Source: Halobacteriovorax sp.
Lineage (GTDB): Bacteria > Bdellovibrionota > Bacteriovoracia > Bacteriovoracales > Bacteriovoracaceae
Assembly: GCA_020048985.1 (NCBI GenBank)
Contig: JAIFLR010000048.1
Coordinates: forward strand, 1 to 64,000
Direction: 5' to 3'
Length of the DNA: 64,000 nucleotides
Part shown: piece after piece, positions 3,348-21,872 of the stretch
How the letters are laid out: every line of letters starts with the position of its first letter
Numbering within the stretch: the stretch's first letter is position 1
Notes under the pieces: generated by a model
What the model saw: only the letters and a program-made list of their open reading frames with translations
The model's database searches: none
What the model was told of the DNA's origin: nothing
Translations under genes and position numbers: made by a program

Positions 3348-3546
3348 CGATCTGGATTACATCGCAAAAATTTGTGGCAATATGGCCGGGCAAACGATTT
3401 GTGCCTTTGCTGACGCTGTTACTGGTCCAGCTCTCTCATCAGTTAGAAAATTCAGATCTGAATTTGAAGACTTGATCCGAAATGGTGGCTTACACCCTAA
3501 AAAAGGTGAGGCCCATTCGCATGCTAAAGAAGGTGCCCATGTCTAA
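3310..3546 (+). pseudogene. nuoF: NuoF C-terminal fragment, displaced frame
   Basis: The translation NKRILDGGGTTDDLDYIAKI followed by CGNMAGQTICAFADAV and a KFRSEFEDLI end is the C-terminal helical-bundle part of NuoF that normally follows the N3 cysteine motif. It carries the late ligand-type cysteine (TICAFADA) but lacks the SCGxCxPCR triad. It lies in a different frame from 2268-3347 with 38 bases of overlap. The sequence TATGAACAAACGC at 3309-3321 could be the product of recombination between two ATGAA copies, one in the codons for Y-E and one in the codons for M-N. A deletion of 3n-1 bases (about 50) would give exactly this frame change. Independent translation from ATG 3310 would not restore function. 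Confidence 0.85.
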
Positions 3547-5089
3547 TACACACGAATACGAAATCAAAAAGCCTAAGGTTGATTTGAATTATTCTTCAAA
3601 TCTTAAGCCTGTTCACAGTGATCCAAATCCTGAGGCCAAACCACTACCTAAAGTGACTATCGATGGAAAGGCTTACGAGTTTAAGCCTGGCGATACTATT
3701 ATGCAGGTAGCAGAGAGATATAGAATCCACGAAGAAATTCCTAGATATTGTTACCACCCAGGAATGCCGATTGCTGGTACTTGCCGTATGTGTACAGTGG
3801 AAGTGGAAAAAGCTCCAAAGCTTATGACTTCTTGTTCAACTCCTGCTGGTGACGGCATGGTTGTTCATACACGTTCTGAGAAAGTAATGAAGTCACGCAC
3901 AGGTGTAATGGAGTTCCTTCTGACTAACCACCCACTGGATTGCCCAGTTTGTGATAAAGCAGGGGAGTGCGAGCTTCAGGATTATAACTTTGAGTACGGT
4001 CCTGCGAAGTCAAACTTTAAAGAAGAAAAGCGTGTTTACGACAACGCTACAACGAAAAAACTTTCTCCACTTGTTACCTTGAACATGAACCGTTGTGTTC
4101 ACTGTGAAAGATGCGTGCGTTTTACGGACGACATTACTAAAACCAATGATCTCGTGATGGTGAACCGTGGATGGCATAAAGAGCTTGAAACAACCACTGA
4201 AGCTGGTTTAACGAATGAGTACCAGGGTAACTTAACGGATTTTTGTCCAGTTGGTGCTTTGACTTGGAATGCCTTCCGTTTTCAAAAACGTTCTTGGTTT
4301 TTGAATCGTAAGCCTTCTCTTTGTGACGGCTGCTCTAAGGGATGCAACATTGAAGTCCATTCAGATGCGGACGTGGTTTACCGTTACGTGCCGATACATA
4401 ACGAAATGGTGAACGGCCACTGGATGTGTGATAGCGGTCGTAACTCTTATGTTTCTTATATGGATCCGTTCCGTGTAACCACTCCAATGCTTCGCCAGAA
4501 TGATAAAATGCACTCGGTATCAATTGAAGCTCTTTTGGCTTCGGTTAATGCTCAATTGAAATCAGCCTCTAGTGTTCAAATTGTTGTTGGTACAGATGCA
4601 ACTCGGGAAGAAGCAGGATTATTAAAAGAAAAAGTTCCGGCCTTAATTGGGAAGAATGTTGCAGTTTCGTACTTTAACGGTACTAACGGCGTGACTTCAC
4701 CTGAAGATGATAAAAAACTCGATCACTTACTCAAGATGAAAGATCTAACACCTAATACTCTTGGCGTAGCAGATCAAGGTCTCGCTCCACTTGCAAACGG
4801 TGAAGTAAGTGCCGATGTCGTGATCCTTTTTAGAAATGGCCGCGCTGGTGTGCCTAAAATGAAAGCTGATCAGAAACTTGTTCTTTGGGGTGTTTGGTCA
4901 CAAAAAGAAATTCAGGCGCTTCCTTCGAAAAACATATTGGGTGTGATCGCTGGTCTTGCCACAATTGAAAAAGAAGGCAGTTATAAAAACGTGGACGGTA
5001 TCGTTCAGAAGTTTCACCCGGCCATCATTCATAGAGGTGGGGCACTAAGTGCTCATCATGTGGTTGGTCTTTGGAAGTCTTTAACTTAA
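3539..5089 (+). CDS. nuoG: NADH-quinone oxidoreductase subunit G (NuoG), short form
   Basis: This is the 75 kDa iron-sulfur subunit of the complex I electron-input module. The start is ATG 3539 (MSNTHEYEIKKP), overlapping the end of the nuoF reading frame by 8 bases. Ligand sets in order: [2Fe-2S] in RYCYHPGMPIAGTCRMC and SCSTPAG; the His-Cys3 motif HPLDCPVCDKAGEC; the CVHCERC motif with a later FCPVGAL; then CDGCSKGCN for an N7-like site, completed by MCDSGR. The protein is 516 residues, much shorter than E. coli NuoG (about 900), because most of the C-terminal molybdopterin-like domain is missing. The reading frame is clean, so this looks like a natural short form. Confidence 0.94.
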   Translation: MSNTHEYEIKKPKVDLNYSSNLKPVHSDPNPEAKPLPKVTIDGKAYEFKPGDTIMQVAERYRIHEEIPRYCYHPGMPIAGTCRMCTVEVEKAPKLMTSCSTPAGDGMVVHTRSEKVMKSRTGVMEFLLTNHPLDCPVCDKAGECELQDYNFEYGPAKSNFKEEKRVYDNATTKKLSPLVTLNMNRCVHCERCVRFTDDITKTNDLVMVNRGWHKELETTTEAGLTNEYQGNLTDFCPVGALTWNAFRFQKRSWFLNRKPSLCDGCSKGCNIEVHSDADVVYRYVPIHNEMVNGHWMCDSGRNSYVSYMDPFRVTTPMLRQNDKMHSVSIEALLASVNAQLKSASSVQIVVGTDATREEAGLLKEKVPALIGKNVAVSYFNGTNGVTSPEDDKKLDHLLKMKDLTPNTLGVADQGLAPLANGEVSADVVILFRNGRAGVPKMKADQKLVLWGVWSQKEIQALPSKNILGVIAGLATIEKEGSYKNVDGIVQKFHPAIIHRGGALSAHHVVGLWKSLT

Positions 5090-5098
5090 GTTGGTGAT

Positions 5099-6193
5099 AT
5101 GGAAAATCAGTTGATTTTTGATTTAACAATGATGGTGGCAAAAATTTTAGTCATCATCGCATGTACACTGGGACTTGCCCCTTTCATCGTTTGGTTTGAA
5201 CGAAGAGGGGCTGCGTGGATGCAAAGACGCGTGGGGCCTAACCGGGTTGGACCGTTTGGACTTCTCCAATCGCTTGCCGATGTTATGAAGTTTGCATTCA
5301 AAGAAACATTTATTCCTAAAAATGCGAATAAGTTTTATTACTTTATGGCTCCAATCCTTGCTTTGATCGCTCCGATGTGTGCACTTGCAGTGATTCCATT
5401 CGGAAGTAAAATCATCGTTAATGGCCAGGAAGTTGTTCTACAAGTCGCCCAGATGGACACTGGAGTAATATTTGTTCTGGCTTTCGCAGGATTAGAGGTT
5501 TATCCGATTATTCTTGCGGGTTGGGCGAGCCGGAATAAATATTCGGTTTTGGGTGCGCTTCGTGGATCTAGTCAGATCGTTTCATATGAAATTTCTATGG
5601 GACTAGCATTACTCTCTATGCTGATTGTCTACGGTTCTTTTAATCCACACGATATGGTGAGCTGGCAGAATGGCACTTTATTTGGATTCCTTCCACGTTG
5701 GGGAGCCTTGGTTAACCCTTTCGGTGCCTTGGTTTTCTGGATTGCTACTTTTGCTGAAACAAACCGTCTACCTTTCGATTTACCAGAAGGTGAGTCTGAG
5801 CTGGTAGCTGGTTACCATGTAGAATACGGTGGAATGAGATTTGCCTCTTTCTTCATGGCAGAGTATGTGGCGATGATTATGGCTTCGGCCCTTTTAGTGA
5901 CTATGTTCTTCGGTGGCTACAACATGTTTCCTGGGATGGGGATATTAGTAGAGGTCATCGGAAATAAAATGAGTTTCGGAGAAATTGGCCTTCAAAATAC
6001 AAAAGCATTTTTTGAATTTGCGAGCTTCTTTGTCAAAGTCTCGTTTTTCATGTTTGTGATGGTTTGGATCCGCTGGACTCTTCCGAGATTTCGCTTTGAT
6101 CAATTGATGGATTTGGGATGGAAAATTCTATTCCCATTATCACTTATTAACCTAGTGCTAGTAACGATTGGCGTTTACTACTTCAATTCTTAA
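5099..6193 (+). CDS. nuoH: NADH-quinone oxidoreductase subunit H (NuoH)
   Basis: This is the membrane subunit that links the peripheral arm to the proton-pumping arm and contributes to the quinone tunnel. It has 364 residues with about eight or nine hydrophobic segments. Family hallmarks are GPNRVGPFGLLQSLAD near the N-terminus and the ETNRLPFDLPEGESELVAGY loop rich in acidic residues. The gene follows nuoG by 9 bases. Confidence 0.96.
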   Translation: MENQLIFDLTMMVAKILVIIACTLGLAPFIVWFERRGAAWMQRRVGPNRVGPFGLLQSLADVMKFAFKETFIPKNANKFYYFMAPILALIAPMCALAVIPFGSKIIVNGQEVVLQVAQMDTGVIFVLAFAGLEVYPIILAGWASRNKYSVLGALRGSSQIVSYEISMGLALLSMLIVYGSFNPHDMVSWQNGTLFGFLPRWGALVNPFGALVFWIATFAETNRLPFDLPEGESELVAGYHVEYGGMRFASFFMAEYVAMIMASALLVTMFFGGYNMFPGMGILVEVIGNKMSFGEIGLQNTKAFFEFASFFVKVSFFMFVMVWIRWTLPRFRFDQLMDLGWKILFPLSLINLVLVTIGVYYFNS

Positions 6194-6204
6194 GAGGTCC
6201 TTAA

Positions 6205-6714
6205 ATGGGAACGATTAATATTTCAAAAAAATATACGGCCAAGCAAAAGTCTTACCTCCCTGCAATTTTGATTGGGATGAAGATTACGCTGAAGCGTTTT
6301 ATTCAAGGTTTCTTTTTCAGACAGCATGACACCATCATGTACCCTGAGCAAAGACGTAAGTACTCTGACCGTTTTCGTGGAATGCACTTTATTTCAGTTG
6401 ATCCGAATAAAACAGAAAATTGCACGGCTTGTTATTTGTGTGAAACGGTCTGCCCAGCAGAATGCATTCACATCGTGGCCGACGAAAGAGAAGAAGAACT
6501 TAACCCTTACGGCGTTAAAAAAGAAAAAAAACCAGTCAGCTTTGATATCGATGCTCTTCGTTGCTGCTTTTGTGGTTTCTGTGAAGAAGCTTGTCCGAAA
6601 GATGCCATCAAACTCTCTGGTAATTACGAGCTAGCTGTTTCTTCCCGTGAAGAAGCGATCTACGATCTTGATCATTTAAAACGTAATATGAACGGCAGAC
6701 AGGAAAAACTATGA
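6205..6714 (+). CDS. nuoI: NADH-quinone oxidoreductase subunit I (NuoI)
   Basis: This is the ferredoxin-type peripheral subunit (169 residues) that holds clusters N6a and N6b and passes electrons to N2. Both CxxCxxCxxxCP motifs are complete: CTACYLCETVCP and CCFCGFCEEACP. The Lys/Arg-rich N-terminal membrane-associated helix is typical. Its stop overlaps the nuoJ start by four bases (ATGA). It is the intact counterpart of the degenerate gene at 18733. Confidence 0.96.
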   Translation: MGTINISKKYTAKQKSYLPAILIGMKITLKRFIQGFFFRQHDTIMYPEQRRKYSDRFRGMHFISVDPNKTENCTACYLCETVCPAECIHIVADEREEELNPYGVKKEKKPVSFDIDALRCCFCGFCEEACPKDAIKLSGNYELAVSSREEAIYDLDHLKRNMNGRQEKL

Positions 6715-7235
6715 GTCCAGTAATAATCATTCTTTGTGTTGTTTCAGCAGTATTGGCTTTGACCATGTTGTTTACTAAGAGCCCTATTACTTCAGCACTT
6801 TGCCTTCTGGGTGTTTTGATCATGACGGCAGCCGTTTATGGGTTGATTGGCGAGCACTTGGTCGCAACGATTCAGCTTGTGGTCTATGCCGGCGCGATTA
6901 TGGTTCTCTTTATTTTCTCTATCATGCTTTTAAATCTCACCGAAGGTGAAAACGACTTTAAGCAAAATCCCGCTGTCTTCATCGCTGGAATTGCATTGGG
7001 GTTAGCGGCTTTCGGCGCTATTGCTTACGCCATCATTCGGCATTTTGCTACTCATGCTGCTGGAAAAGAAATGGGTATTTACTCACCAGAGAAGATCGCC
7101 GAATTAGGAGGGAACTCCATCGTTCTTTCTCACGCTCTATTCTCACAATTTTATGTCTCGTTTGAAGTCATTTCACTGGCCCTGCTCGTTGCAGTTGTTG
7201 GTGCTGTCGTTCTTGCGAAGAGAAAAGTGGATTAA
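6711..7235 (+). CDS. nuoJ: NADH-quinone oxidoreductase subunit J (NuoJ)
   Basis: This is an integral membrane subunit of complex I, 174 residues, with about five transmembrane helices. The conserved VVYAGAIMVLFIFSIMLLNL segment forms the helix with the pi-bulge that is important for coupling. The C-terminal FEVISLALLVAVVGAVVLAKR is also typical. It is translationally coupled to nuoI. Confidence 0.95.
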   Translation: MSPVIIILCVVSAVLALTMLFTKSPITSALCLLGVLIMTAAVYGLIGEHLVATIQLVVYAGAIMVLFIFSIMLLNLTEGENDFKQNPAVFIAGIALGLAAFGAIAYAIIRHFATHAAGKEMGIYSPEKIAELGGNSIVLSHALFSQFYVSFEVISLALLVAVVGAVVLAKRKVD

Positions 7236-7244
7236 GGGATTATT

Positions 7245-7547
7245 ATGACAAACGAAATACTGCTTCAATTATTGTCCGCTTTCTTATTTACCATGGGCTT
7301 ACTGGTGGTTCTTCTTCGTAGAGATACAATTATGATCTTGATGGGAATTGAGCTTCTGTTAAATGCAGCGAACTTATCCCTTGTCGCTTTCTCAAAGTCA
7401 TCTCACATGATCGAGGGGCAAGTTCAGGTATTTTTCATTATCACGATTGCTGCAGCCGAATCTGCTATCGGGTTATCTATTTTAGTTAACCTCTACCGTA
7501 ACTTCGGTTCAATTAATACTCAAAGCGCAACTACTCTTAAAGGATAG
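7245..7547 (+). CDS. nuoK: NADH-quinone oxidoreductase subunit K (NuoK)
   Basis: This small antiporter-related membrane subunit has 100 residues and three helices. The conserved membrane glutamates are present in LMGIELLLNAANL and IAAAESAIGLSI. It follows nuoJ by 9 bases and precedes nuoL by 4 bases. Confidence 0.96.
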   Translation: MTNEILLQLLSAFLFTMGLLVVLLRRDTIMILMGIELLLNAANLSLVAFSKSSHMIEGQVQVFFIITIAAAESAIGLSILVNLYRNFGSINTQSATTLKG

Positions 7548-7551
7548 ACTT

Positions 7552-9468
7552 GTGGAAACTATGCATTCAGTCCTGCCTGCTCTGATTCTGATTTCTCCGC
7601 TGGTAGGATTTTTCATCAACGGCGTTGTGTTACCTCTTTCACTGAAAGGTTTTGCAAAAACCCCTGCGAATACTGCTGGTGGGGTGGCAACGGCTTTTAT
7701 TGGATTTAGTTTTATCTTGGCTTTATTTGCCTTTGCTAAACTTTCAGGTTCAACCGATCCAAATCCATCGATCCTCATTAACTGTTTTGAGTGGTTCAAT
7801 TTTGGAGGATTAAATATTCCTTTCGAACTTCGTATTGATAAGCTATCAGGTCTGTTGGTTCTTATTATCACTGGTATCGGGACGTTGATTCATCTTTATT
7901 CTATAAGTTATATGCACGAGGAAGAATGCGTCGGCCGCTACTTCTCTTACTTAAATCTTTTCTGCTTTTCCATGCTTCTATTAGTTATGGGTAATAATCT
8001 TCCGCTTCTCTTCTTTGGATGGGAAGGTGTTGGTCTGTGCTCATACTTATTGATTGGTTTCTGGTACACGGAAACTGAGAAAGCAAACGCTGGAAAAAAA
8101 GCCTTTATTGTTAACCGAATCGGAGATCTTGGTTTCCTGATCGGTATGTTCATGCTCTTCCAAGAATTAGGAACTTTGACTCTTCCAGAAATTAGCTCCC
8201 TATTGGCAAACCCAGAGGTTGTGGCAAGAATCATGCCTTCAGTGACAATGATCTGCCTTGCTCTTTTTGTAGGACCGACTCCAGTTTCTGCCTTGATCCA
8301 CGCTGCGACTATGGTAACGGCTGGTGTTTATATGATTGCTCGTTTGAGTCCTTTGTTTGAACTCTCACCTATGGCGCTTTCTGTAGTTGCCCACGTTGGT
8401 GCTATTACGGCCCTCTTTGCTGGTTCAATCGCAGTTGCTCAGACGGATATTAAAAAAGTTCTCGCCTATTCAACTGTCTCTCAACTTGGTTTCATGTTCC
8501 TGGCGTGTGGAGTAGGAGCTTACCAAACAGCTGTATTCCATTTAATGACTCACGCTTTCTTTAAGGCCCTATTGTTCCTCGGTTCAGGCTCGGTTATCCA
8601 CGCTTGTTCTGGTGAGCAAGATATGACGAAAATGGGTGCGCTTAAAAAACACCTCCCTCACACGCATCTCACAATGCTAATCGGGTCTCTTGCAATCTCA
8701 GGTATTCCATTCTTTTCAGGATTCTTCTCAAAAGATGAAATTCTTTACTCTGCGATCGCTCTTCCCGGTGGAGTGTCTTACTTATTTGTGATTGGTGTCC
8801 TTACCGCGATTCTTACGGCTTTTTATACCGGCCGTATGATGAGTCTTACTTTCTACGGACAAAAAAGATACTCACACGATGTTGAGCACCACTTGCATGA
8901 GTCACCAGCACTTATGACTTTTCCACTTTATGTCCTGGCAATCCTGGCAGCCTTAGGTGGCTTCTTAGGTGTTCCTCACTTACTTGGGGATTACTTGGGA
9001 CACATGCCTCACTACTTGTCGCACTGGCTAGATCCTGTCGTTCCCTCTAAGCATCTGCCTCTTGTGGGAGTTAAAATTGCTCTACATGAAGGTGTTGTAA
9101 TGGCGGGATCTTCAATCGTAGCCATTATTTCTTATTTTACTGGAGTTGCCCTGTTCAAGAAGCACATGTTTGTAAAAGACATTCTTGGTGCTTTTAGCCC
9201 CGTGGAAAAAATTCTTGCCAAGAAATATTACGTCGACGAACTCTATGAAGTTATCGTTGTTAACCCGATTAAGAAAATATCTCTATTCTCGGCCAACATT
9301 ATAGATAAGTTCGTGGTTGATGGGGCAGTGAACGGAATTGGTTCTAAGGTTAAAAGACTAGGAACTGGGCTTCGTTTTCTCCAGACTGGTGACATCCAGA
9401 CATATGCTTTTATGATGCTCATGGGGTTAGTTCTTGTCGTTTTATTTATTTTAAAAGTTTTGGTTTAA
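7552..9468 (+). CDS. nuoL: NADH-quinone oxidoreductase subunit L (NuoL)
   Basis: This is the distal proton-pumping antiporter-like subunit, 638 residues. It shows GWEGVGLCSYLLIGFW, the VGPTPVSALIHAATMVTAGV channel segment and the HAFFKALLFLGSGSVIH segment. A C-terminal amphipathic region precedes a final hydrophobic anchor, as expected for the lateral helix of NuoL. The best start is GTG 7552 (AAAGGATAGACTTGTG gives a good ribosome site); ATG 7561 is an alternative three codons on. Confidence 0.95.
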   Translation: METMHSVLPALILISPLVGFFINGVVLPLSLKGFAKTPANTAGGVATAFIGFSFILALFAFAKLSGSTDPNPSILINCFEWFNFGGLNIPFELRIDKLSGLLVLIITGIGTLIHLYSISYMHEEECVGRYFSYLNLFCFSMLLLVMGNNLPLLFFGWEGVGLCSYLLIGFWYTETEKANAGKKAFIVNRIGDLGFLIGMFMLFQELGTLTLPEISSLLANPEVVARIMPSVTMICLALFVGPTPVSALIHAATMVTAGVYMIARLSPLFELSPMALSVVAHVGAITALFAGSIAVAQTDIKKVLAYSTVSQLGFMFLACGVGAYQTAVFHLMTHAFFKALLFLGSGSVIHACSGEQDMTKMGALKKHLPHTHLTMLIGSLAISGIPFFSGFFSKDEILYSAIALPGGVSYLFVIGVLTAILTAFYTGRMMSLTFYGQKRYSHDVEHHLHESPALMTFPLYVLAILAALGGFLGVPHLLGDYLGHMPHYLSHWLDPVVPSKHLPLVGVKIALHEGVVMAGSSIVAIISYFTGVALFKKHMFVKDILGAFSPVEKILAKKYYVDELYEVIVVNPIKKISLFSANIIDKFVVDGAVNGIGSKVKRLGTGLRFLQTGDIQTYAFMMLMGLVLVVLFILKVLV

Positions 9469-9475
9469 GGAATAT

Positions 9476-11023
9476 ATGGAAACAACTTCATGCCTGCTTA
9501 CATGGATTATTTTTTCACCTCTGCTCTTTGCATTGCTGGCATTTTTCACCCCGTCAGCTTTTGAAGGAAAACTTCGAACACTTACACTAGTTCAGACCCT
9601 TGTTGGAGCTGTGCTAGCGACTGTTCTTTACTTCAATTTTGATGGAAATCAAGCTGGTCCGCAAATGGCGCATTTGGTGGCGTGGCTTCCGGAGTGGGGG
9701 ATTAACTATCTCGTATCGATTGATGGTATCAGCCTTCCGCTTATTATGCTGACTGCTTTCGTTTCACCTGTCGCAATTCTTGGAACTTGGCCAGCAGCGG
9801 GTGTTGAACTCAAAAAAGAAAAGTTCTTTGTTATCATGCTGATGTTTTTACAAACCGGTATGTACGGAACTTTTCTTGCATCTGACATATTCCTTTTCTA
9901 CTTTTTCTGGGAAGTTGTTCTTATCCCAATGTTCTTCTTGATTGGCGTCTGGGGTGGAAAAGAGCGCATATATGCGACCGTTAAGTTCTTTCTCTATACC
10001 ATGGTGGGATCCCTTCTCATGTTGGTTGCGATTTTCTATATGCTTAAGGTCTCTGCTGAGACAGCTGGTGTAGCGAATGGTTCTTTCTACAATCTTCAGA
10101 GTCTTCATTTCGCTTTTGATGGGTCGTCTTTTCAGACGGTATTAAGCTCTCCACAGACTTGGCTGTTCCTCGCTTTTGCTTTGGCTTTTGTGATCAAAGT
10201 TCCTATGGTCCCTTTCCATACTTGGCTCCCAGATGCACACGTTCAAGCTCCGACTGTTGGTTCTGTTTTTCTGGCTGCTGTCCTACTAAAGCTTGGTACT
10301 TATGGCCTGATGAGAATAGCTATTCCTTTCTTTCCTGAAGCAGCTTTCTACTTCAGAGAATTTTTCATTCTCATGGGTGTGATTGGTATTATATACGGAG
10401 CTTTCTGTGCTCTTGGGCAATCAGATTTAAAAAAACTCGTAGCGTACTCGTCGGTATCGCATATGGGTTACATAATGGTTGGTCTTTTTGCTTTTCAGAA
10501 AATTGCTTTTGCCGGCTCACTTTATCAGATGATCAATCACGGCATCTCTGCCGGCGGTCTTTTCTTAATCGTTGGATTCCTTTATGAGCGCCTTCATACT
10601 AGAAATCTGAATGAGTTTGGTGGTCTGGCCAAGATAGTTCCAGTTATGGCGATTGCTTTTATGATTATGACTCTTTCATCTGTCGCACTTCCAGGTTCTA
10701 ACGGTTTTGTGGGAGAGTTTCCAATTCTCCTTGGTGCTTTTCAAGTTAACCCATTTTATGTTTTGTTTGCCGGAACTGGGGTTATCCTAGGTGCCGTCTA
10801 TGCTCTTAAAGCTTACCAGTTGGTGATGCTAGGGCCTCAGACAAGATCTGATCTTGATCATTTGCACGACCTCAATGCGAAAGAAATCATCGCCATGATC
10901 ATTTTGACCATCTTTGTGTTTGGGATAGGTTTCTTTCCAAAAACATTTTTTGGGAAATCGGATGTAACTTTAGATCAATATTCAAATTCAATTATCAATA
11001 AAGTAGGACCACATGGACCTTAA
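9476..11023 (+). CDS. nuoM: NADH-quinone oxidoreductase subunit M (NuoM)
   Basis: This is an antiporter-like proton-pumping membrane subunit, 515 residues with about fourteen helices. Hallmarks are FFFWEVVLIPMFFLIGVWGG, VPMVPFHTWLPDAHVQAPT and AYSSVSHMGY. Its 3' end overlaps the start of nuoN by 11 bases. Confidence 0.95.
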   Translation: METTSCLLTWIIFSPLLFALLAFFTPSAFEGKLRTLTLVQTLVGAVLATVLYFNFDGNQAGPQMAHLVAWLPEWGINYLVSIDGISLPLIMLTAFVSPVAILGTWPAAGVELKKEKFFVIMLMFLQTGMYGTFLASDIFLFYFFWEVVLIPMFFLIGVWGGKERIYATVKFFLYTMVGSLLMLVAIFYMLKVSAETAGVANGSFYNLQSLHFAFDGSSFQTVLSSPQTWLFLAFALAFVIKVPMVPFHTWLPDAHVQAPTVGSVFLAAVLLKLGTYGLMRIAIPFFPEAAFYFREFFILMGVIGIIYGAFCALGQSDLKKLVAYSSVSHMGYIMVGLFAFQKIAFAGSLYQMINHGISAGGLFLIVGFLYERLHTRNLNEFGGLAKIVPVMAIAFMIMTLSSVALPGSNGFVGEFPILLGAFQVNPFYVLFAGTGVILGAVYALKAYQLVMLGPQTRSDLDHLHDLNAKEIIAMIILTIFVFGIGFFPKTFFGKSDVTLDQYSNSIINKVGPHGP

Positions 11024-12491
11024 TTCTGCATTTCCACTTGTTGCGCTAACACAGTCTGAAGTATTGAATCTTCTCCCTCTATTCACAATTTCTTTTGGGG
11101 CATTGTTTAGTTTACTCGCGGGAACGAATAAAACGAAGGGACGCGGATATGCTTTCATCATGGCTTTTTCTTTCATTGTTCTTGCTGTGATTCAGGGTGG
11201 GTATTTAATTTTCTCTTCCGATATCACCCTTTTAGGCGGAACACTTACATTTAGTCCTTTCACAAAAACTCTCAATTTGATGATCATGTTTTTTGCCTTA
11301 ATAGGCGTTGTTCTGACTTACGGTCAAGACCTCAAGGAGGGACTGCTATCGGAAATTTATGCTCTGATTCTTTTCGCTACTGCGGGCATGATCTTAATGG
11401 TTTCTACAACACATCTTCTTTTCATGTTTATTGCCCTGGAGATTATGTCTTTAGCTGTTTACGTCATGGTTGCGATGAGACGAAATAGTCAATTTTCGGC
11501 AGAAGCAGGACTCAAATATTTTATTTTGGGTGGTGTTGCTTCCGCTCTCTTCCTATACGGGACGTCTTTGGTTTTTGGAGCGCTAGGTTCATTTGAGCTT
11601 TCAAATCTAGAACTGGCCCTTAGATCAACTTCACAACCATCATTTATCTTTTTTGTTGGTCTTGGTCTTATTTTGGTCGCTATGCTTTTCAAAGTAGGGG
11701 CTTTCCCATTTCACGGCTGGCTACCTGACGTTTACCAAGGTGCTGCAACTAACGTTACAGCATTCATGGGCGCAGCTGTTAAATTTACTGCATTCATTGC
11801 CCTGGCCAAAATTGCTCAGAATCTGATCTTTATCGAAACAGTTCCTAACCTCAAGTGGTTCCAAGTTTTCATTTGGCTTTCAGCTGCTGCCAGCATGATT
11901 TACGGGAACTTTGTGGCGATCTCTCAGAATGAAATTAAACGTATGCTTTCGTTTTCAACGATTGCTCACACTGGTTACCTACTTCTTGGATTATATGCCA
12001 TGAACCAAAGTGAAGAGTCGGGACAGTCTTTGGTCCTTTATCTTTTCTTCTATGCGCTTTCTAATCTTGGTGCCTTTGCCATTATTTCTCTTTTTGAAGA
12101 AAAGAATCAGAAAGATCTGCATATTGAACAAATTGCTGGTCTCGGAATGAAGCACCCTGTTTTAGGTACCTTATTTACAATTTTCCTTCTTTCAATGGCC
12201 GGAATTCCGCTTACATCAGGGTTTATTGGTAAGTATGGTCTTTTTAGTTCAGCTGTAAGTGCTGGCGAAATTCCTTTGGTTATCATTGCTGTTCTGACTT
12301 CAGTTGTGTCTGTTTATTATTACCTTAGAGTCATTGTGTATCTTTTTATGAAAGAAGGCACAGAGGACACGGCCATATATCAGAAGTTAACTGGCGCCTC
12401 AGTGGCGGCTTTCTTGTCAGCGGCTGCAACCCTGCATTTTGGGTTGTTTCCAAAAACGATTATTCACTTTATTAAAATGATTGCTAAGTAA
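11013..12491 (+). CDS. nuoN: NADH-quinone oxidoreductase subunit N (NuoN)
   Basis: This is the third antiporter-like subunit, 492 residues. It carries FIALEIMSLAVYVMVA, GAFPFHGWLPDVYQGAAT and SMAGIPLTSGFIGK. It is the last recognised gene of the complex I operon, which matches the common nuoA-N order. A small uncharacterised gene follows 10 bases downstream with no visible terminator between them. Confidence 0.95.
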   Translation: MDLNSAFPLVALTQSEVLNLLPLFTISFGALFSLLAGTNKTKGRGYAFIMAFSFIVLAVIQGGYLIFSSDITLLGGTLTFSPFTKTLNLMIMFFALIGVVLTYGQDLKEGLLSEIYALILFATAGMILMVSTTHLLFMFIALEIMSLAVYVMVAMRRNSQFSAEAGLKYFILGGVASALFLYGTSLVFGALGSFELSNLELALRSTSQPSFIFFVGLGLILVAMLFKVGAFPFHGWLPDVYQGAATNVTAFMGAAVKFTAFIALAKIAQNLIFIETVPNLKWFQVFIWLSAAASMIYGNFVAISQNEIKRMLSFSTIAHTGYLLLGLYAMNQSEESGQSLVLYLFFYALSNLGAFAIISLFEEKNQKDLHIEQIAGLGMKHPVLGTLFTIFLLSMAGIPLTSGFIGKYGLFSSAVSAGEIPLVIIAVLTSVVSVYYYLRVIVYLFMKEGTEDTAIYQKLTGASVAAFLSAAATLHFGLFPKTIIHFIKMIAK

Positions 12492-15211: not shown

Positions 15212-16702
15212 ATGCTATTGAGATTATGTCAATTGAAAAGCCTGTCACTGCTGACACTTCTTGTGGTGAGCAGCTGTTCTTTTTTTCGTTCTAACAACGA
15301 ACAGGCCAAAGAATTGCTCTCTGCCATGAAGAATGAGTGGTTTGGCAATAATCCTCAGCACGCCCTCTACGATCAGCAAGGTAAACCTCAGGCCCACCAC
15401 TTCTTTGATGTGAATCCAGAACTTAGTAAAAATGATGTGAATGTAAATGCTGTTGTTATCGTGCCCGAGGGATCCGATCATAGTTACCAATTGGACCTCG
15501 TTTCAGGTCAGCGTTTTTATTCTCATTCCTATTGTCCACAAAGTGATATTTGGGGTCACTACTCGGGCTCCATAAATAAACCGATCTTTAGTATTGGAGT
15601 TATCCCACGTCTCTTAGATCAGCTAGGGGAGCCACAGAAAGTGATTATTTTTGGAGGCGCGAAAAGTTTTTCCAAGAGAGTTGATTTTCATGAGTATAGA
15701 ATTAGGTTGATAGGCGCAGTGATAGAGCAGAGCTGTCCACAGGGGAACTGCCTTGGGAAGAATAACTGGATCTCTAGAATGGTCTTCGTTGCAGTTGATC
15801 CCAATGATCCAAAATTTGAAAAGATTACCAATATTGCTGGCCTGCAAACAAAGGTTGAGTGGTCTCAAACTAAAGCAGTGATGGAAAATCTTGATGGAAG
15901 AAATGAGGGGGGGAATATAAGTTACCCCGCTATTCGTATTGGTCAGTTTATAAAACTAGACGAGGCGATGGAGTATTATAAAAAACGCTCCATCTACCTG
16001 TCGGAAAAAGAAACACAGAAGATTAAACAGGGGTGTCACGCTCTTTACGAAAAACTATGGGATGAAGTGGGAGTTGAGCGGCCGGAAGATAAAGCGGCAA
16101 AAACGGTTGAAGAATTGAATGCGAAAGTAAAGCTCAGAGCAGAACTAACCAAGAAATTGAAACCCGTTGGCTTTGCTGCTCGCTTTGAAGCCTTCTCGAA
16201 AAAATACTACTCTGAATTTACGACCTGCCAAAAATTCGTCTATTCAGGAAATATTAATCTTAATCCTGAGAAGTTTTGGTTCTTGAGTTATGCAGGGATG
16301 TTCTTCCGACTCCATAAAGATGGTTATTATTATGATTGCAAGGGGCAGTCATGGCGCAAAAACACACTTGATAATGTCGGGAAGCCTATTTATGACATTA
16401 AAACTGGTTTGATGAATTGCAGAGATGCTGATTTTGACCGCGCTATGGAATTTTTGCCCAATTTTTTGATAGGTATCAAAAACACCGAAAATATTTATTA
16501 TAAATTTGTGGATTACGATACTCGCACTTTTGGGACTCATCAAAAACTGTATTCATGGGTAAAAGTAAAATCGAGAAAGTATGACTGTTACTCAGATCCA
16601 AATCTTGAAATAAAAAAAGAAGTGAAGGTTTTTCCAGAAGACGTCAGTTGGAAAATTCGAAAAATAACAGACATTGCTGACGAACTAAAGATTATTTACT
16701 AA
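15212..16702 (+). CDS. Hypothetical lipoprotein, 496 aa
   Basis: The N-terminus LSLLTLLVVSSC is a signal peptide with a lipobox ending at Cys22, so this is a probable outer-membrane or periplasmic lipoprotein. The mature part is long, rich in aromatic and charged residues, with scattered cysteine pairs (for example CPQGNC and several C-terminal cysteines) that may form disulfides. No family is recognised. It ends directly at the ATG of the NuoB-like gene with no gap, so it may be co-transcribed with the divergent complex I trio. Confidence 0.75.
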   Translation: MLLRLCQLKSLSLLTLLVVSSCSFFRSNNEQAKELLSAMKNEWFGNNPQHALYDQQGKPQAHHFFDVNPELSKNDVNVNAVVIVPEGSDHSYQLDLVSGQRFYSHSYCPQSDIWGHYSGSINKPIFSIGVIPRLLDQLGEPQKVIIFGGAKSFSKRVDFHEYRIRLIGAVIEQSCPQGNCLGKNNWISRMVFVAVDPNDPKFEKITNIAGLQTKVEWSQTKAVMENLDGRNEGGNISYPAIRIGQFIKLDEAMEYYKKRSIYLSEKETQKIKQGCHALYEKLWDEVGVERPEDKAAKTVEELNAKVKLRAELTKKLKPVGFAARFEAFSKKYYSEFTTCQKFVYSGNINLNPEKFWFLSYAGMFFRLHKDGYYYDCKGQSWRKNTLDNVGKPIYDIKTGLMNCRDADFDRAMEFLPNFLIGIKNTENIYYKFVDYDTRTFGTHQKLYSWVKVKSRKYDCYSDPNLEIKKEVKVFPEDVSWKIRKITDIADELKIIY

Positions 16703-17095
16703 ATGAGTAAGCATAAACCTGTCCTGAAAATATTTTCTTTTGGTCACCCACTCATGACAACTGAATGGCGCTCAATACTTGGTGACAAATATTGTCACGC
16801 CTTACCGTTTGATTATGTCATTACAGATAATATGGGGGATGCATCCGTTATTGCCTGGGATGGAGTGGTCTCTCTTAAGCTTAGAAGTTTGCAGGCAGAG
16901 TTGGAAAAACAGCTCTCAAAGGGCAAGGTACTTCTGCTTCTAGGGGAGTCCCATACACTTTTCCAGGAGGGATCATTGGTAAGGATCTTTGACAATCCTG
17001 AGATCGCAACGATTCAATTAAATGGTTGGTCGGTTCTTCCTGAAGAAATTCTCTCAGCACTAGAGACCTGTTACCAAAAGATCACACATGTTTAG
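16703..17095 (+). CDS. Divergent NuoB-like protein lacking all cluster N2 cysteines
   Basis: This is a 130-residue protein. Its order of motifs matches the 20 kDa NuoB fold: FSFGHPLMTTEW (12-22) aligns with the NuoB segment TFGLACCAIEM, KVLLLLGES (75-83) with the strand before GSC, and NGWSVLPEEIL (107-117) with PGCPPRPEAL. All four N2 ligands are replaced: L17, M18, S83 and W109. Assignment is by motif alignment and by position directly before a NuoCD-like and a NuoI-like gene. It starts with no gap after the lipoprotein stop and overlaps the next gene by 8 bases. It cannot hold the N2 cluster, so a structural or non-redox role is likely. Unrecognised orphan is the alternative. Confidence 0.6.
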   Translation: MSKHKPVLKIFSFGHPLMTTEWRSILGDKYCHALPFDYVITDNMGDASVIAWDGVVSLKLRSLQAELEKQLSKGKVLLLLGESHTLFQEGSLVRIFDNPEIATIQLNGWSVLPEEILSALETCYQKITHV

Positions 17096-18722
17096 CTGGA
17101 AAGAATTTCAAAAATCGAAAACGATCCTTTCCCAGGATAGTTCTTATAAAGAGTTGGTAGGTCAGCATCACGTGACTATCAGGCCAGTTAATCTCATCCG
17201 CTGGGTAGAAATGGCCAAGGATGATTTGGGTTTTTTGACATTGGTGGAGATTGCGGGCGCTGATCTTGCTGGTGTTGATAAGAGCGAGTTTGGTTTTGAG
17301 CTAACTTATCATCTTCTGAATATGGGAAATCATCAAAGACTCAATATTCATGTGATCTTTGACCTTCAAGAAATTGTTCCGAGCATTGTTAATCTATTTT
17401 CAAACTCTGACTGGATGGAGCGTGAGCAAGGTGAAGCGCTGGGGATTAAATTCTCTCGGCCACTGAAGGCACTTCTCCTTCCCAAAAAACAAACGAAATT
17501 TCCTTTGAGGAAACTGGCAAATACTGATCACTGGCCAGTAGATGAACAGGAACCTTTACCTCAGATTAAAACTAATCCCAATAAATCAGAAGCCCCTTAT
17601 GCAGAGGAGGCTTTCGTTTGGAGAAAATATGACGTTTTTACTCCTTCAACCTTTGGGATGTTTGACTGGATGGTTTGTTACGATCCCATAAATGTAGTCG
17701 ACACAAAAATGAATATCGGGTTTCATCACCAGGGGCTGGAGAAAATTCTCGAGAAAAAAGACTGGCAACATGTTCTTCAGTTAGTAGATAAAATTCACGT
17801 TGGAGCAGCCCCCACTTATGGAATTGCGTGGGCGAAAAACCTGGAAGATCTCTTACGAATAAAATTACCGGAAAGGGCACAGGCGATCAGAATTGTGGTT
17901 CTTGAGCTGGCCCGAATAGCAGAGCACTTTACAGTCATGCATGAGTTAACATTCGCGCTTGAACTTGAAGAGCATCGCTTGCTCATAAACTGCCGAGAAA
18001 AGATATACGAGTTGATGGAGAAGTATTGTGGTCGCAGACAAGGTCTAAGCATTGCCCAAATTGGTGGTGTTAAGCAGGACCTTCCGCACGGTTGGATCAT
18101 AGAGTATCAGTCCGTTTGTGAAATCGTTTTAAAAACACTTCGCACGATTCATCGCTCGCTTGTGAGCCAGAGTAAATTCAGGGAACAATTGAATGGGGGC
18201 GCAGTCAGTGCCCAAATGGTCCTGGAGTGGGGGATCAGTGGCCCCGCCATGAGGGCGTCCGGGCTCAATTTTGATCTGCGAAAATCCCAGCCTTTCTATT
18301 TTTATCAGGATATTGATTTCGACATTCCAGTCGGGATTAATGGAACGGCTTACGACCGATACCTCATACGATATGAAGAAATCTTTCAAAGTTTTCGCAT
18401 CATTACTCAGGTGATTGATAATCTGCCTTTAGGAGAAATACTGAGTGCAGACTTTGATAAGGACTTTTTTGGACTTCAAAACTATTTAGCAAGTATGCCG
18501 ATACCACAGGCATGGCAATATACGGGGATTGAATCACCAAATGGTGAGGCTGGATTTTTGGTGATGTTTAACGAGAGTGTTAATCCCTATCGAGTAAAAA
18601 TTAAAACGCCTAGCTTGCCGCTAGTACAGGCGCTGACTCACTTTGTTTCAGGAATTCGAGAAGAGCAACTTCGGCCCTATCTGGCGAGTTTGGGTATCCG
18701 ACAATTTGAGCTTGATCGCTAG
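17088..18722 (+). CDS. Divergent NuoC-NuoD fusion (complex I / group 4 hydrogenase-related)
   Basis: This is a 544-residue protein. Residues 1-150 form a NuoC-like domain (SDWMEREQGEALGI matches the NuoC ERE signature) and 170-544 a NuoD-like domain (LELARIAEHF, YDRYLIRYEE, ESPNGEAGF, LGIRQFELDR). The sites that define quinone chemistry are lost: where NuoD has HHPxxHG this has FTPSTFG (T185, F189), and the Tyr87-equivalent is V238. NiFe-hydrogenase CxxC motifs are also absent. It lies between NuoB-like and NuoI-like genes. It is an old paralogue, not a recent copy of the nuoC/nuoD genes at 1-1729, where C and D are separate. No membrane-arm genes accompany it. Confidence 0.85.
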   Translation: MFSWKEFQKSKTILSQDSSYKELVGQHHVTIRPVNLIRWVEMAKDDLGFLTLVEIAGADLAGVDKSEFGFELTYHLLNMGNHQRLNIHVIFDLQEIVPSIVNLFSNSDWMEREQGEALGIKFSRPLKALLLPKKQTKFPLRKLANTDHWPVDEQEPLPQIKTNPNKSEAPYAEEAFVWRKYDVFTPSTFGMFDWMVCYDPINVVDTKMNIGFHHQGLEKILEKKDWQHVLQLVDKIHVGAAPTYGIAWAKNLEDLLRIKLPERAQAIRIVVLELARIAEHFTVMHELTFALELEEHRLLINCREKIYELMEKYCGRRQGLSIAQIGGVKQDLPHGWIIEYQSVCEIVLKTLRTIHRSLVSQSKFREQLNGGAVSAQMVLEWGISGPAMRASGLNFDLRKSQPFYFYQDIDFDIPVGINGTAYDRYLIRYEEIFQSFRIITQVIDNLPLGEILSADFDKDFFGLQNYLASMPIPQAWQYTGIESPNGEAGFLVMFNESVNPYRVKIKTPSLPLVQALTHFVSGIREEQLRPYLASLGIRQFELDR

Positions 18723-18732
18723 GAAATATAAG

Positions 18733-19110
18733 ATGATTTTAAACAGGAATTATTACAGTAAGATTTCGATTTGGCGGGGCTGGTGGTTTAGAAGACAAGT
18801 ACATAAACTCGTTGGGGAAAAGCTGTTTAAAGTATTTAAATTACACAAAACTGTGTGGCCCGATAAGCTTTATTTTTACTCACCGAGATTGAAACGTAAA
18901 CCTTTGTTTATAGGTTCAGCAGAAGCATTATCCCAGTGGAAAAACGCAAAATTGTGTGAGACTATATGCCCGACCCAAGCGATCGAAGTGAAGGCAGACG
19001 CCATCATAATTGATGATCGTGGATGTATAGGTTGTGGGCTTTGTGTAGAGTTTTCACCGCCAGGTTTGTTGGAAATGTCATCCGATATCCCTCTCTTACA
19101 TCGGTCTTGA
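18733..19110 (+). CDS. Divergent NuoI-like ferredoxin retaining one [4Fe-4S] site
   Basis: This is a 125-residue protein. The start is ATG 18733 after AGGAAATATAAG; upstream in-frame ATGs lie inside the NuoCD-like gene. A basic NuoI-like N-terminus is followed by two ferredoxin motifs. The second has C98, C101 and C104 but S108 in place of the fourth Cys. The first keeps C75 and C79 but has W69 and A72 in place of the first two. In 2[4Fe-4S] ferredoxins the fourth Cys of each motif serves the other cluster. So C98/C101/C104 with C79 make one complete site, while the other site is dismantled. It closes the NuoB/CD/I-like trio; the desaturase gene follows 12 bases on. Confidence 0.8.
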   Translation: MILNRNYYSKISIWRGWWFRRQVHKLVGEKLFKVFKLHKTVWPDKLYFYSPRLKRKPLFIGSAEALSQWKNAKLCETICPTQAIEVKADAIIIDDRGCIGCGLCVEFSPPGLLEMSSDIPLLHRS

Positions 19111-19122: not shown

Positions 19123-20199
19123 ATGTTTAAATTTTTTTCGATGTCTGCGATTGCTTTTTCTGGGCTTTGGTTCTTGGTGGAAAAAACTCTCGGAATGAAT
19201 GGTTTCTTGGGGCAATATGTTTCTGCACACCCTTTTATTTTTATTACCATCTACGCCCTTGTAATCTCGCACATCACAATTACTTGTATGAGTCTTTCTT
19301 ATCACCGCTACCACACGCATAAAGGTGTGATCCTGAATAAGAAACTTGATATGGTCATGCAAGTTTGGTTATGGCTCATTACTTCTTTGAATAAGGCTGA
19401 ATGGGTTTCGACTCATATCTTTCACCATGCTCACTCAGACCTTCCGAAAGACCCTCATAGTCCGGTACAAAAAGGTATCTGGCACGCATTGTTCTTGGGT
19501 GTTTTTGATTACGCTGAAGGAAAAAATCTTCCAGAAGTTGTTAAAATTCGTAAAACAATTCCAACAACTAAGTTTGAAGCCTTCATGCAAAATAACTCAC
19601 TCACTGGACCTACGATCATGACAGTTATTATGGTTGTGATGTTTGGCCCAATTTGGGGTGGGATTCTTAGTCTTACAAATTTCCTTACGTCGCCTATTTT
19701 TGCTATTGGTGGAGTCAATGCCATCGCTCATTGGTGGGGATATAGAAACCACAAAACGACTGATAACAGCCGAAATATTGGTTTCCTCTTCCCGCTTAAC
19801 TTCATTATCTGCGGCGAACTCGATCATAATAATCACCACGGTCACATGCGTTCATGTTCATTCCGTCACCGTTGGTTTGAATTTGATATCGGTTTTGTTT
19901 ATATCAAGGCCCTGAGTGCTCTTGGTTTGGCCGAGCTGAAGAATGTTTATTCCCCTGCCACTTTGAAGCAGGAACTTTCTAAAAAAATGTCTGATCTGAT
20001 TGAGAGTGATCTTCGCTTTAAGCAGCGTTGTGAAGAATTGGCCCGTGAGATGAACATCACTTACCAGGAATTCAAAGCTCGCCTCGAGGCTTATTGCCGT
20101 GGCGAAAAAGTAAAACTTGAAAGATCATGCAGAGAATTTATGAATGAGGTTATCCGTACCTTGAAGGCGAATCAGCGTCTCAATCTTCGTTACAACTAA
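19123..20199 (+). CDS. Acyl-CoA / fatty-acid desaturase (delta-9 type)
   Basis: This is a membrane di-iron desaturase of 358 residues that introduces a cis double bond into acyl chains for membrane fluidity. All three histidine boxes are present: HRYHTH, HIFHHAH and DHNNHHGH. Hydrophobic segments flank them in the usual arrangement. A charged C-terminal helical tail (from about residue 270) extends past the catalytic part. It follows the NuoI-like gene by 12 bases, raising the question of whether that ferredoxin supplies electrons. It ends tail-to-tail with the arginase/Aat frame, overlapping by 4 bases. Confidence 0.9.
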   Translation: MFKFFSMSAIAFSGLWFLVEKTLGMNGFLGQYVSAHPFIFITIYALVISHITITCMSLSYHRYHTHKGVILNKKLDMVMQVWLWLITSLNKAEWVSTHIFHHAHSDLPKDPHSPVQKGIWHALFLGVFDYAEGKNLPEVVKIRKTIPTTKFEAFMQNNSLTGPTIMTVIMVVMFGPIWGGILSLTNFLTSPIFAIGGVNAIAHWWGYRNHKTTDNSRNIGFLFPLNFIICGELDHNNHHGHMRSCSFRHRWFEFDIGFVYIKALSALGLAELKNVYSPATLKQELSKKMSDLIESDLRFKQRCEELAREMNITYQEFKARLEAYCRGEKVKLERSCREFMNEVIRTLKANQRLNLRYN

Positions 20200-20855
20200 A
20201 AGATTTCGTTTCTTTTTTTCGTCCAGTCTTTCTTTGAGAGCAATTGAAGAAATTCTGGACGGGAAATATACTTTCCACCAAATCCCTCAACAACCGCAGT
20301 GACCATCTGAGTATCAAGCCATTGGATACCCATTTTTTTAAGCCTGATGATGAGCTCGTATAGGGCAAGTTTTGAAGCATTATCCTCCTTGGTGAACATG
20401 GATTCACCTGAGATAAAATCGCCCATACAGACCCCGTAGAGGCCTGCTATAAGCTGCTCGCCGTCCCATACCTCAACTGAATAGGCGAGTCCCGCCTTGA
20501 AGAGTTTTTCATAGCCCTGAATGATGTCGGGTGTGATCCATGTGGAAGACTGATTTTTTCGATAGCTGGCCGCACACTGATTAATGACTTCGGTAAAGTT
20601 TTGATTGAAGGTTACTTTGTATTCGGACTTTTTCAGAAACTTAGAAAATGATTTTGAAAGGTGGAGATCATCCATGACAAGTATCCCGCGCGGGTCAGGA
20701 GAAAACCATGCCAGAGGATGCTCCAGCGACACGGGCCAAGGAAAAATTCCCTGACGGTAAGCTGTCACAAGGGTATCAAGCTCAAGATCGCCGCCAATGG
20801 CAACCAGGCCATCTTCGGTGGCATTCACAACCGGGGGAAATTCGATCCTTCTCAT
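20196..20855 (-). other. aat: Aat module, probable independent start
   Basis: ATG at 20855 begins MRRIEFPPV, the usual N-terminus of bacterial Aat. From here the frame encodes a normal-length 219-residue leucyl/phenylalanyl-tRNA-protein transferase with GLVAIGGDLELDTLVTAYRQ and GIFPWP. If the upstream arginase once ended at 20869, this ATG would lie 13 bases after its stop, a normal operon spacing. Confidence 0.7.
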
Positions 20856-21872
20856 TTTGAAATTGATCTCAGAAGGATTTTTGCCATGTCTCCAGCAACC
20901 GACAAGGAGCTTAGTCGAGTGCGAGAGCATCATGATGATAGCTGCGCAGTCCGTTGGGATTAAACCATCTGGTTCGGGTGTGCCTGTTGCAGCCGCGTAT
21001 CGGCTATCAAGAGCATCGATATCAAAAGTGATGTAGATTTCTTCAACACCGATCTTTTGATAATGAGATTTAATTTTTTGATAAATTTTCTCAGCACCTA
21101 ATTTATTAACTTCGCTCGCCCAATGCTGTTCAACGCCGAGACTTTTTTTCCAGTGCTTTTTATCTTTGCCGCTTGAACGTATGCCTACTTGGACTATGTG
21201 ATCAGTGCTGTGAAGGTCATCCAAAATTTGATAAGTCCACGTTCCAAAACATAGATCTATTCCCATTCTCCGGTCGAGGAGATCTGTGTGAGCATCAAAG
21301 TGCAGTAGGGCAGCCTTCTTTTTATGCTTGCGACTTGATAACCACGCTCTGACTAGGGGGTAACTCACTGAGTGGTCTCCACCTAAACCCAGAATTTTGG
21401 CATGAGGGTGCTTTTTGTAAATTTCGGCCAGAGCGAGTTCTGCAATACTTAGAGGGGAGACAGGAAGCTTGTTGTTTTTTCCATAAAGTGCCTTTCGGCA
21501 TATTTTAAGAGTTTCTTCGTTGAGGTATTTGTCATGAAGAAGGTGAGGAATGACCCTGACATCCCCTAAATCCTTAAAGCTTTTTTTGTCAGCTAATAGC
21601 TCCTGGCGAATGGCCAGTGGCCCCCAATTGGCGCCGCGGTGGATTCCCCCGCCGTTATCAGAAGGAATACCCAATACCAATGGAAGATTGGTATTCAAGT
21701 CATCGAGAGTTTTCTCCCACTTCGGTTTAGCTTTTTCGGCTGATGTCGTTCCGTAGTAGGCCTTAAGTAATTTTTCTTTTTTTTCGGCCCCGGTGTGCAC
21801 TGTAAATACACCCGAACCCGGTAGTGTTAGGAGGAGTTTTAGATTTTTCAGTTTAATTCTCCCTTGGCCCAT
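20196..21872 (-). CDS. Arginase-family ureohydrolase fused in frame to leucyl/phenylalanyl-tRNA-protein transferase
   Basis: This is a 558-codon frame. Residues about 60-325 are an arginase/agmatinase domain with the Mn ligands GGDHS (164-168), DAHTD (193-197) and DIDALD (284-289). Residues 340-558 are a complete Aat, the N-end-rule enzyme that adds Leu/Phe to N-terminal Lys/Arg. The arginase part stops abruptly at KLLVG, before the family's usual GADVVE segment and last helix. In another frame the bases just after read LLETWQKSF and a stop at 20869-20871, which looks like a natural arginase C-terminus. An out-of-frame deletion inside arginase probably joined two neighbouring genes. The arginase as written lacks about 40-60 residues. 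Confidence 0.8.
   Translation of the reverse strand: MGQGRIKLKNLKLLLTLPGSGVFTVHTGAEKKEKLLKAYYGTTSAEKAKPKWEKTLDDLNTNLPLVLGIPSDNGGGIHRGANWGPLAIRQELLADKKSFKDLGDVRVIPHLLHDKYLNEETLKICRKALYGKNNKLPVSPLSIAELALAEIYKKHPHAKILGLGGDHSVSYPLVRAWLSSRKHKKKAALLHFDAHTDLLDRRMGIDLCFGTWTYQILDDLHSTDHIVQVGIRSSGKDKKHWKKSLGVEQHWASEVNKLGAEKIYQKIKSHYQKIGVEEIYITFDIDALDSRYAAATGTPEPDGLIPTDCAAIIMMLSHSTKLLVGCWRHGKNPSEINFKMRRIEFPPVVNATEDGLVAIGGDLELDTLVTAYRQGIFPWPVSLEHPLAWFSPDPRGILVMDDLHLSKSFSKFLKKSEYKVTFNQNFTEVINQCAASYRKNQSSTWITPDIIQGYEKLFKAGLAYSVEVWDGEQLIAGLYGVCMGDFISGESMFTKEDNASKLALYELIIRLKKMGIQWLDTQMVTAVVEGFGGKYISRPEFLQLLSKKDWTKKRNEIF

Follow-up and report, generated by a model that had tools for sequence, protein, structure and literature searches.

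A complex I-derived trio of NuoB-, NuoCD- and NuoI-like proteins in Halobacteriovorax: a putative soluble remnant of the peripheral arm

Respiratory complex I (NDH-1) is usually seen as an all-or-nothing enzyme. A fused 30 kDa and 49 kDa subunit with NuoB-like and ferredoxin-like partners is also found in the group 4 [NiFe] hydrogenases and formate hydrogenlyase (HycE/HycG/HycF) and in Ehr complexes. Furthermore, an 11-subunit complex I-like enzyme without NuoEFG is described for Desulfitobacterium hafniense (PMC11238625). The DNA analysed here, referred to as the window, consists of 64,000 nucleotides of Halobacteriovorax sp. (family Bacteriovoracaceae, phylum Bdellovibrionota) from the beginning of a contig of 69 kb in a genome of 3.25 Mb; named near relatives in the public collection belong to Bacteriovoracaceae / Halobacteriovorax as well. 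The window encodes three adjacent proteins related to NuoB, NuoCD and NuoI, in the following termed the trio. No description of such a set was found in the literature covered, which comprised titles and the beginnings of abstracts and left subscription journals mostly outside. The genes of the trio are:

NuoB-like gene: 16703..17095, plus strand; 130 amino acids, none of the four N2 cysteines, shortened N-terminal region
NuoCD-like fusion: 17088..18722, plus strand; 544 amino acids, 30 kDa and 49 kDa domains; His, Tyr and Asp of the quinone site substituted
NuoI-like gene: 18733..19110, plus strand; 125 amino acids, one [4Fe-4S] site kept, the other lost

An ancestral NADH-dependent complex I encoded by split operons is the well-supported source of the trio, which represents a remnant of its peripheral arm; the sequence comparisons described below also support the reading of the trio as a maintained derivative of the connecting module of complex I. 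The best explanation, to which we assign a probability of roughly 40%, is that this remnant has turned into a soluble B-CD-I scaffold that may sense redox conditions or hold electrons.

As a single sequence, the NuoB-like protein had no match in Pfam or NCBIfam. A profile of 19 NuoB-like sequences of the genus, however, aligns with the NuoB profile over 124 columns (hhalign E 1.5e-9, probability 96), and the top six PDB profile matches are all NuoB or NdhK chains (best E 3.3e-4, sixth 0.016). The NuoB identity, which the initial annotation had proposed from motifs alone, is thus borne out. The fold model of the protein, built from 5 sequences, has a predicted local distance difference test score (pLDDT) of 63; Foldseek placed NuoB chains among its best matches, beside other alpha/beta folds and with another alpha/beta protein in the first row, and returned no match at an E-value below 0.001. 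The columns of the N2 ligands contain L, M, a gap and W in the window's protein, and none of the four cysteines occurs in any of the 20 aligned genus sequences (window included; five further same-genus matches were left out of this alignment). Positions 16703-17095 are therefore confirmed, by profile and alignment, as encoding a NuoB homologue without any N2 cysteine, and the loss of all four N2 cysteines annotated earlier extends to the aligned genus sequences.

The NuoCD-like protein matches the Pfam families Complex1_49kDa (4.9e-57) and Complex1_30kDa (3.6e-17), and the best PDB match of a 12-member profile is E. coli NuoCD (1e-111). At the quinone site it has Thr185, Phe189 and Val238, in exact agreement with the replacements noted before, and the Asp column is changed as well, to Ala. 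A group 4 [NiFe] hydrogenase was considered and rejected: the translation contains no CxxC nickel-ligand motif, and the match to NiFeSe_Hases reaches only E 0.014, which is below the family cut-off and far weaker than the match to NuoD. The NuoI-like protein most likely starts with the ATG at 18733 rather than with the TTG at 18643 of the open reading frame (ORF) list. Of its ferredoxin-pattern cysteines, C4 and C5-C7 are retained and C1, C2 and C8 are gone. It thus has one complete ligand set for a [4Fe-4S] cluster, as expected from the annotated loss of one of the two NuoI clusters; we take the retained site to be the N6b position in complex I numbering. C4 and C5-C7 are present in all 18 aligned NuoI-like sequences of the genus and, in addition, in those of the genomes G003 and G012.

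The three ORFs are intact, and the NuoCD-like gene overlaps the NuoB-like gene by 8 nucleotides. The surroundings in the window are:

Canonical nuoC-nuoN operon: 82..12491, plus strand; belongs to another complex I lineage, from which the trio does not derive
Lipoprotein gene: 15212..16702, plus strand; signal peptide, lipobox Cys22, exported homologue of family I inorganic pyrophosphatase with a C-terminal extension
DesA-family desaturase gene: 19123..20199, plus strand; same gene string, optional
Arginase-family plus Aat reading frame: 20196..21872, minus strand; conserved right-hand synteny landmark of the locus

The gaps between the lipoprotein, NuoB-like, NuoCD-like, NuoI-like and desaturase genes are 0, -8, 10 and 12 nucleotides, so that the string looks like one operon. 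The earlier statement that no antiporter or NADH-module genes accompany the trio is correct only for positions 16703-19110: the nuoC-nuoN operon lies upstream, ending 4.2 kb before the trio, and the corresponding locus of relatives contains E, F and G, with the matching membrane arm elsewhere in the genome. The trio as a duplicate of the adjacent canonical operon was rejected, since a tree of CD sequences groups the trio with the lipoprotein-linked arms of the family and has canonical NuoD and the NuoD of a further gene quartet (see below) both on the same side of a supported branch.

Within the genus, the NuoB-like gene was found in 24 of 25 other genomes (missing in G019), the full-length NuoCD-like gene in 23 (missing in G019 and in G008, where the NuoB-like gene lies close to the end of a short contig) and the lipoprotein gene in 23 (missing in G019 and G021). 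CD identity drops to 42% across the genus. None of the 25 NuoB-like and 24 full-length NuoCD-like genus matches, the window included, contains an internal stop, and the frameshifted remnants that would speak for decay were thus not seen. In the closest pair, G003 and G012, the ratio of nonsynonymous to synonymous substitution rates (dN/dS) is 0.075 for the NuoB-like, 0.079 for the NuoCD-like, 0.185 for the NuoI-like and 0.091 for the lipoprotein gene, compared to 0.029 for metAP. These values come from one pair with dS between 0.16 and 0.30, most other pairs being saturated or nearly so, and the NuoI-like value covers 109 codons, with the G012 gene start lying within unreadable bases; rows for arg_aat with L085 and L088 and for NuoM and NuoL of the window/L070 set the wrong ORFs against each other and were ignored. 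The trio genes and the lipoprotein gene are under purifying selection. Together with the conserved neighbourhood of lipoprotein and trio in related genomes, this upholds two proposals of the initial annotation, namely that the trio is maintained and not decaying and that the upstream lipoprotein possibly goes with it.

In other genera of the family, the equivalent locus is bordered by the lipoprotein gene on the left and by arginase/Aat and metAP on the right, with longer gene sets in between:

lipoprotein-B-CD-E-F-G-I: G039 and G055; all catalytic residues that were checked are present
B-CD-E-F-G-I on a short contig: G020:C103 (L064); a possible contaminant, as the same genome also has the trio
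Part of a six-gene arm: G052 (L105); short contig, B cut
Diverged E, F and G kept: G030; quinone set already lost
B-CD-F-G: G051
B-CD-G-I: G053

Many family genomes have a B-CD-I arrangement, which is followed in the series by the degenerate trio, and B-CD-E-F-G-I without this lipoprotein occurs in other families of the phylum. In one of the latter (L116 in G085), a short second set of a B-like gene, an ORF of 116 amino acids, a D-like and an I-like gene lies directly after an intact six-gene arm. For a scan of a sequence collection the CD profile was used, as the lipoprotein has no sufficiently conserved stretch; it gave at least 80 loci, most of them ordinary NuoCD or NuoD of other groups. 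All four quinone-site residues (H, H, Y, D) are present at 4 of 4 six-gene loci of the family (3 of 3 if L064 is left out) and at 14 of 14 aligned loci of other families. The full set occurs at none of the 22 reduced loci outside the genus, none of the four further CD remnants and none of the 20 aligned genus loci. Of the same 22 reduced loci, in contrast, 12 have all N2 cysteines, two have some of them and eight have none; only the last two N2 cysteines are visible in the cut B of G052. A record titled H. marinus keeps all N2 and NuoI cysteines in its trio, and its quinone site is lost. Thus, the losses, described as coordinated in the initial annotation, are stepwise over the family: the NADH module (E, F and G), the quinone site and pumping seem to have been lost first, N2 and N6a later. 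In the CD tree, from which the four degenerate CD remnants and a split G003 row were left out, intact six-gene arms adjoin the outgroups and reduced arms sit on lengthening branches, with a weak deep backbone; the six-gene arm is therefore most simply regarded as ancestral. Parsimony requires six label changes for N2 on this tree, of which well-supported branches force one, and several branches are very long; perhaps N2 was lost several times.

The membrane arms are encoded elsewhere in these genomes. G039 has two A-H-J-K-L-M-N sets in tandem, and tandem sets are also present in G055 and G052, where the second is cut within L by the contig end. In G053, set 1 and a quartet qB-qC-qD-qI form one string of eleven genes. 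Since set 1 belongs with the quartet, set 2 is the natural partner of the six-gene arm. The charged residues of set 2 are kept in G039. Elsewhere its decay runs parallel to that of the peripheral arm: in G045, the channel Lys of set-2 NuoL is gone and so is the quinone His of CD, and in set-2 NuoM of G057 key positions have changed from Glu to Lys and from Lys to Glu. In G030, G041, G058, G035 and G037, the interval between set-1 nuoN and a gene for a tetratricopeptide repeat (TPR) protein is occupied by seven membrane ORFs, which are shortened and stand in the corresponding order; the degenerate string reaches to the end of the stretch read in G048 and G059, G029 keeps five of its genes, and the strings of G046, G032, G027 and G050 were read in part only. 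The H. marinus-titled record also has a seven-gene string, whose A, H, J, K and L are 52, 39, 48, 57 and 28% identical to those of G027; its other two membrane ORFs had no match. Degenerate H is recognized by profile (E 1.1e-6, probability 83).

In the window's genus, the TPR gene directly follows set-1 nuoN at all 15 loci read, including trio-less G019, and the set-2 arm is thus not at its usual place at any of these loci. A search of 25 genus genomes with the degenerate NuoH of G029 found nothing and lacked a positive control. Set 2 is likewise missing in G031, which has the lipoprotein and no arm. The TPR protein (1057 amino acids, one predicted transmembrane helix; L136 353-3526) ends the membrane-arm strings read in the family even where set 2 is absent. 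The Halobacteriovorax genome furthermore encodes a NuoB-NuoC-NuoD-NuoI quartet in which all cysteines and the quinone site are preserved (L031, G000:C38, 9537-12279); this quartet and the set-1 membrane genes on another contig (L136) probably constitute an 11-subunit complex I whose genes lie at two separate loci.

The following scenario would account for these observations. The ancestor would have carried lipoprotein-B-CD-E-F-G-I at this locus and A-H-J-K-L-M-N elsewhere, in tandem with another membrane arm. The trio lineage would then have lost the NADH module, the quinone site, N2 and N6a and, in the window's genus, also the membrane arm. The remaining B, CD and I proteins are predicted to form a soluble cytoplasmic heterotrimer via the old subunit interfaces, which would neither reduce quinone nor receive electrons directly from NADH; the NuoI-like subunit would hold a putative single [4Fe-4S] cluster on the B-CD scaffold. 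Rather than being a respiratory enzyme, the complex might act on a partner protein as a redox-sensing or electron-holding scaffold. The intact and co-retained subunits, the conserved [4Fe-4S] ligands and the survival of the trio without membrane arm or desaturase argue for a self-contained soluble scaffold with one redox centre, and a single redox centre on a scaffold would suggest a role in sensing or holding electrons. The trio also seems to persist without canonical nuo genes in G003, G004, G009, G010 and G012, which have one NuoH each; other trio genomes have a second NuoH, so that the trio probably occurs with or without the canonical nuo operon, with the reservation that these genomes are incomplete.

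Several observations weigh against this scaffold. The trio is absent from one genus member (G019), and in some genera nothing but a single CD remnant (G037, G040, G044 and G049) or the lipoprotein (G031, G043 and G054) is left, which implies that its function is dispensable. Judged by branch lengths, the NuoCD-like protein evolves faster than canonical NuoD. The cluster of the I protein is lost or replaced in some sister lineages: in G046 and G059 (L061 9938-10249 and L062 8298-8609), a zinc-ribbon-like CxxC...CxxC protein stands in place of the ferredoxin motifs, and no ferredoxin motif was seen downstream of CD in D1_Bin_38. The [4Fe-4S] cluster of the NuoI-like protein may also be structural. 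In the degenerate membrane arm, only H is clearly recognized; for J and A the best profile match is the respective namesake, though a weak one (J: E 0.0017, probability 6; A: E 0.0049, probability 3), and K, L, M and N, whose profile matches are not significant, are assigned by gene order and intermediates. Finally, the lipoprotein is predicted to be exported, which makes contact with the cytoplasmic trio unlikely.

One alternative is that a non-catalytic B-CD-I complex docks on a working membrane arm, either of the 11-subunit type-1 complex I or of canonical complex I, and blocks, caps or chaperones it as a decoy or assembly factor. The quinone-site segment faces NuoH in complex I. This very segment is degenerate in the trio and the N-terminal region of the NuoB-like protein is missing, and we consider docking unlikely, even though the trio retains the NuoB/CD/I architecture including the NuoC domain, set-1 membrane genes are present at the set-1 loci read in the family, and the trio occurs with and without a second NuoH and so probably with or without the canonical operon. 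In E. coli, the NuoC domain is reported to govern complex I assembly (PMC7050243).

Alternatively, the trio could be a redundant complex I under slow erosion, with residual function only and heading for loss. The graded series down to CD remnants and lone lipoproteins and the fast evolution of the NuoCD-like protein would fit; however, dN/dS of 0.08-0.19 between close genomes (one pair), the uninterrupted NuoB-like and full-length NuoCD-like frames and the retention of the trio across a genus as diverse as this one make erosion an unlikely explanation for the trio. Long-term erosion is also part of the picture, as some genera shrink further.

It is very unlikely that the NuoI-like ferredoxin on its scaffold is a dedicated electron donor to the adjacent desaturase: DesA-type desaturases require an electron donor, and the gene follows in the same string after 12 nucleotides and adjoins the trio at 16 of 20 genus loci read and in G029, G034 and D1_Bin_38, but in G003, G004, G010 and G012 the trio and its Fe-S ligands are retained although an orthologous desaturase is missing (paralogues are only 23-26% identical), no such desaturase was seen beside other B-CD-I loci outside the genus, and the gene string contains no flavoprotein to charge the cluster. 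These four genomes also led us to reject the desaturase, suggested as a possible partner in the initial annotation, as an obligate one. The desaturase itself matches NCBIfam NF049918 with 6.2e-63, which is under the curated cut-off of that family.

The lipoprotein upstream of the trio is homologous to family I inorganic pyrophosphatases (PPases). Its profile aligns with a PPase profile over 136 columns (hhalign E 1.6e-8), whereas controls with NuoH and NuoM profiles gave a probability of 0.3 or less. With exported PPase paralogues, in which D-G-D-P-x-D is kept, the alignment covers 315 columns (E 1.6e-20). These paralogues, with D-G-D-P-x-D and a C-terminal extension, are:

L262 1278-2393
L263 1-821
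L264 899-1993

PF00719 of Pfam is reached by two of 16 lipoprotein members (best E 0.0085), the window's not being one of them, and the only two PDB sequence-profile matches are PPases (E 0.063 and 0.91). All 50 Foldseek matches listed for the lipoprotein model are PPases, 49 by title and one under the title acid anhydride hydrolase. The model, built from 5 sequences, is of low quality (pLDDT 47), and the TM-scores by query length are 0.14-0.18. The homology is thus based on profiles, to which the predicted fold adds weak support of low confidence. The catalytic motif D-x-D-x-x-D is replaced by L-G-E-P-Q-K in the window's lipoprotein, in which 22 of 26 charged or Tyr columns invariant in eight PPases are changed. 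None of the 16 members has an intact Asp triad, one keeping one of the three Asp, and this includes lipoproteins beside intact six-gene arms (G039 and G055). Eight Cys beyond the lipobox Cys are invariant in the 16 aligned members. The Ser at position +2 presumably directs the protein to the outer membrane. A match to Pesticin immunity protein (Pim) was rejected, as it was below the cut-off and limited to one of the 16 members.

Further features of the window were observed. A tRNA-Leu gene (TAA anticodon, minus strand, 15099-15185) lies directly upstream of the lipoprotein gene. The arginase-family and Aat regions form a single frame of 558 amino acids at 20196-21872, either a fusion or a sequence error; in most relatives read they are separate ORFs of about 360 and 220 amino acids. 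Presumably, nuoA and nuoB of the canonical operon lie beyond the contig edge. The canonical NuoL (7552-9468) lacks about 20 residues near position 8272, including GKSAQ...WLPDAM with the channel lysine, which are present in G017; the gap is in frame and is either a real deletion or an assembly collapse.

A degenerate two-armed set is kept in several genera and in the H. marinus-titled record. It seems about evenly balanced whether Bacteriovoracales have a 'pseudo-complex I', i.e., the trio and often a seven-gene membrane arm, stripped of NADH, quinone and pump residues and kept for a non-bioenergetic job, of which the window's genus would have the minimal soluble form with three subunits, one [4Fe-4S] cluster and a pseudo-pyrophosphatase lipoprotein. 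If true, this would go beyond a variant of known complex I. The graded series shows an order in which complex I can be taken apart with its proteins still retained. It runs from a seemingly complete enzyme of 13 subunits to arms without quinone and pump residues but with Fe-S ligands and finally to arms without N2. These arms provide naturally mutated versions of the quinone site and of N2 within complete proteins, and they raise the question of which role the complex I scaffold has after its bioenergetic function is gone. Halobacteriovorax comprises predatory bacteria and is maintained in culture.

Among the described systems, the group 4 [NiFe] hydrogenases differ in several points: the NuoCD-like protein matches NuoD far better than hydrogenases, contains no CxxC nickel ligands and has no membrane subunits beside it here. 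Ehr complexes are similar by description. The lipoprotein shares profile homology and a low-confidence fold match with family I inorganic pyrophosphatases but is exported, has a long extension and has lost the catalytic residues. The trio and the 11-subunit enzyme of Desulfitobacterium hafniense both comprise B, C, D and I without the NADH module; however, in that enzyme the Fe-S clusters, the quinone site and the membrane arm are reportedly all retained, and its counterpart in this genome is not the trio but the separate qB-qC-qD-qI quartet with the set-1 membrane genes. Compared to the peripheral arm of respiratory complex I, the trio is without N2, the quinone-site residues and E, F and G, has one NuoI cluster site instead of two, and in the window's genus no membrane arm was found for it; what it shares with a catalytic complex I is homology, which is nearly full-length and extends to the same subunits, the gene order B-CD-(EFG)-I and the domain fusion.

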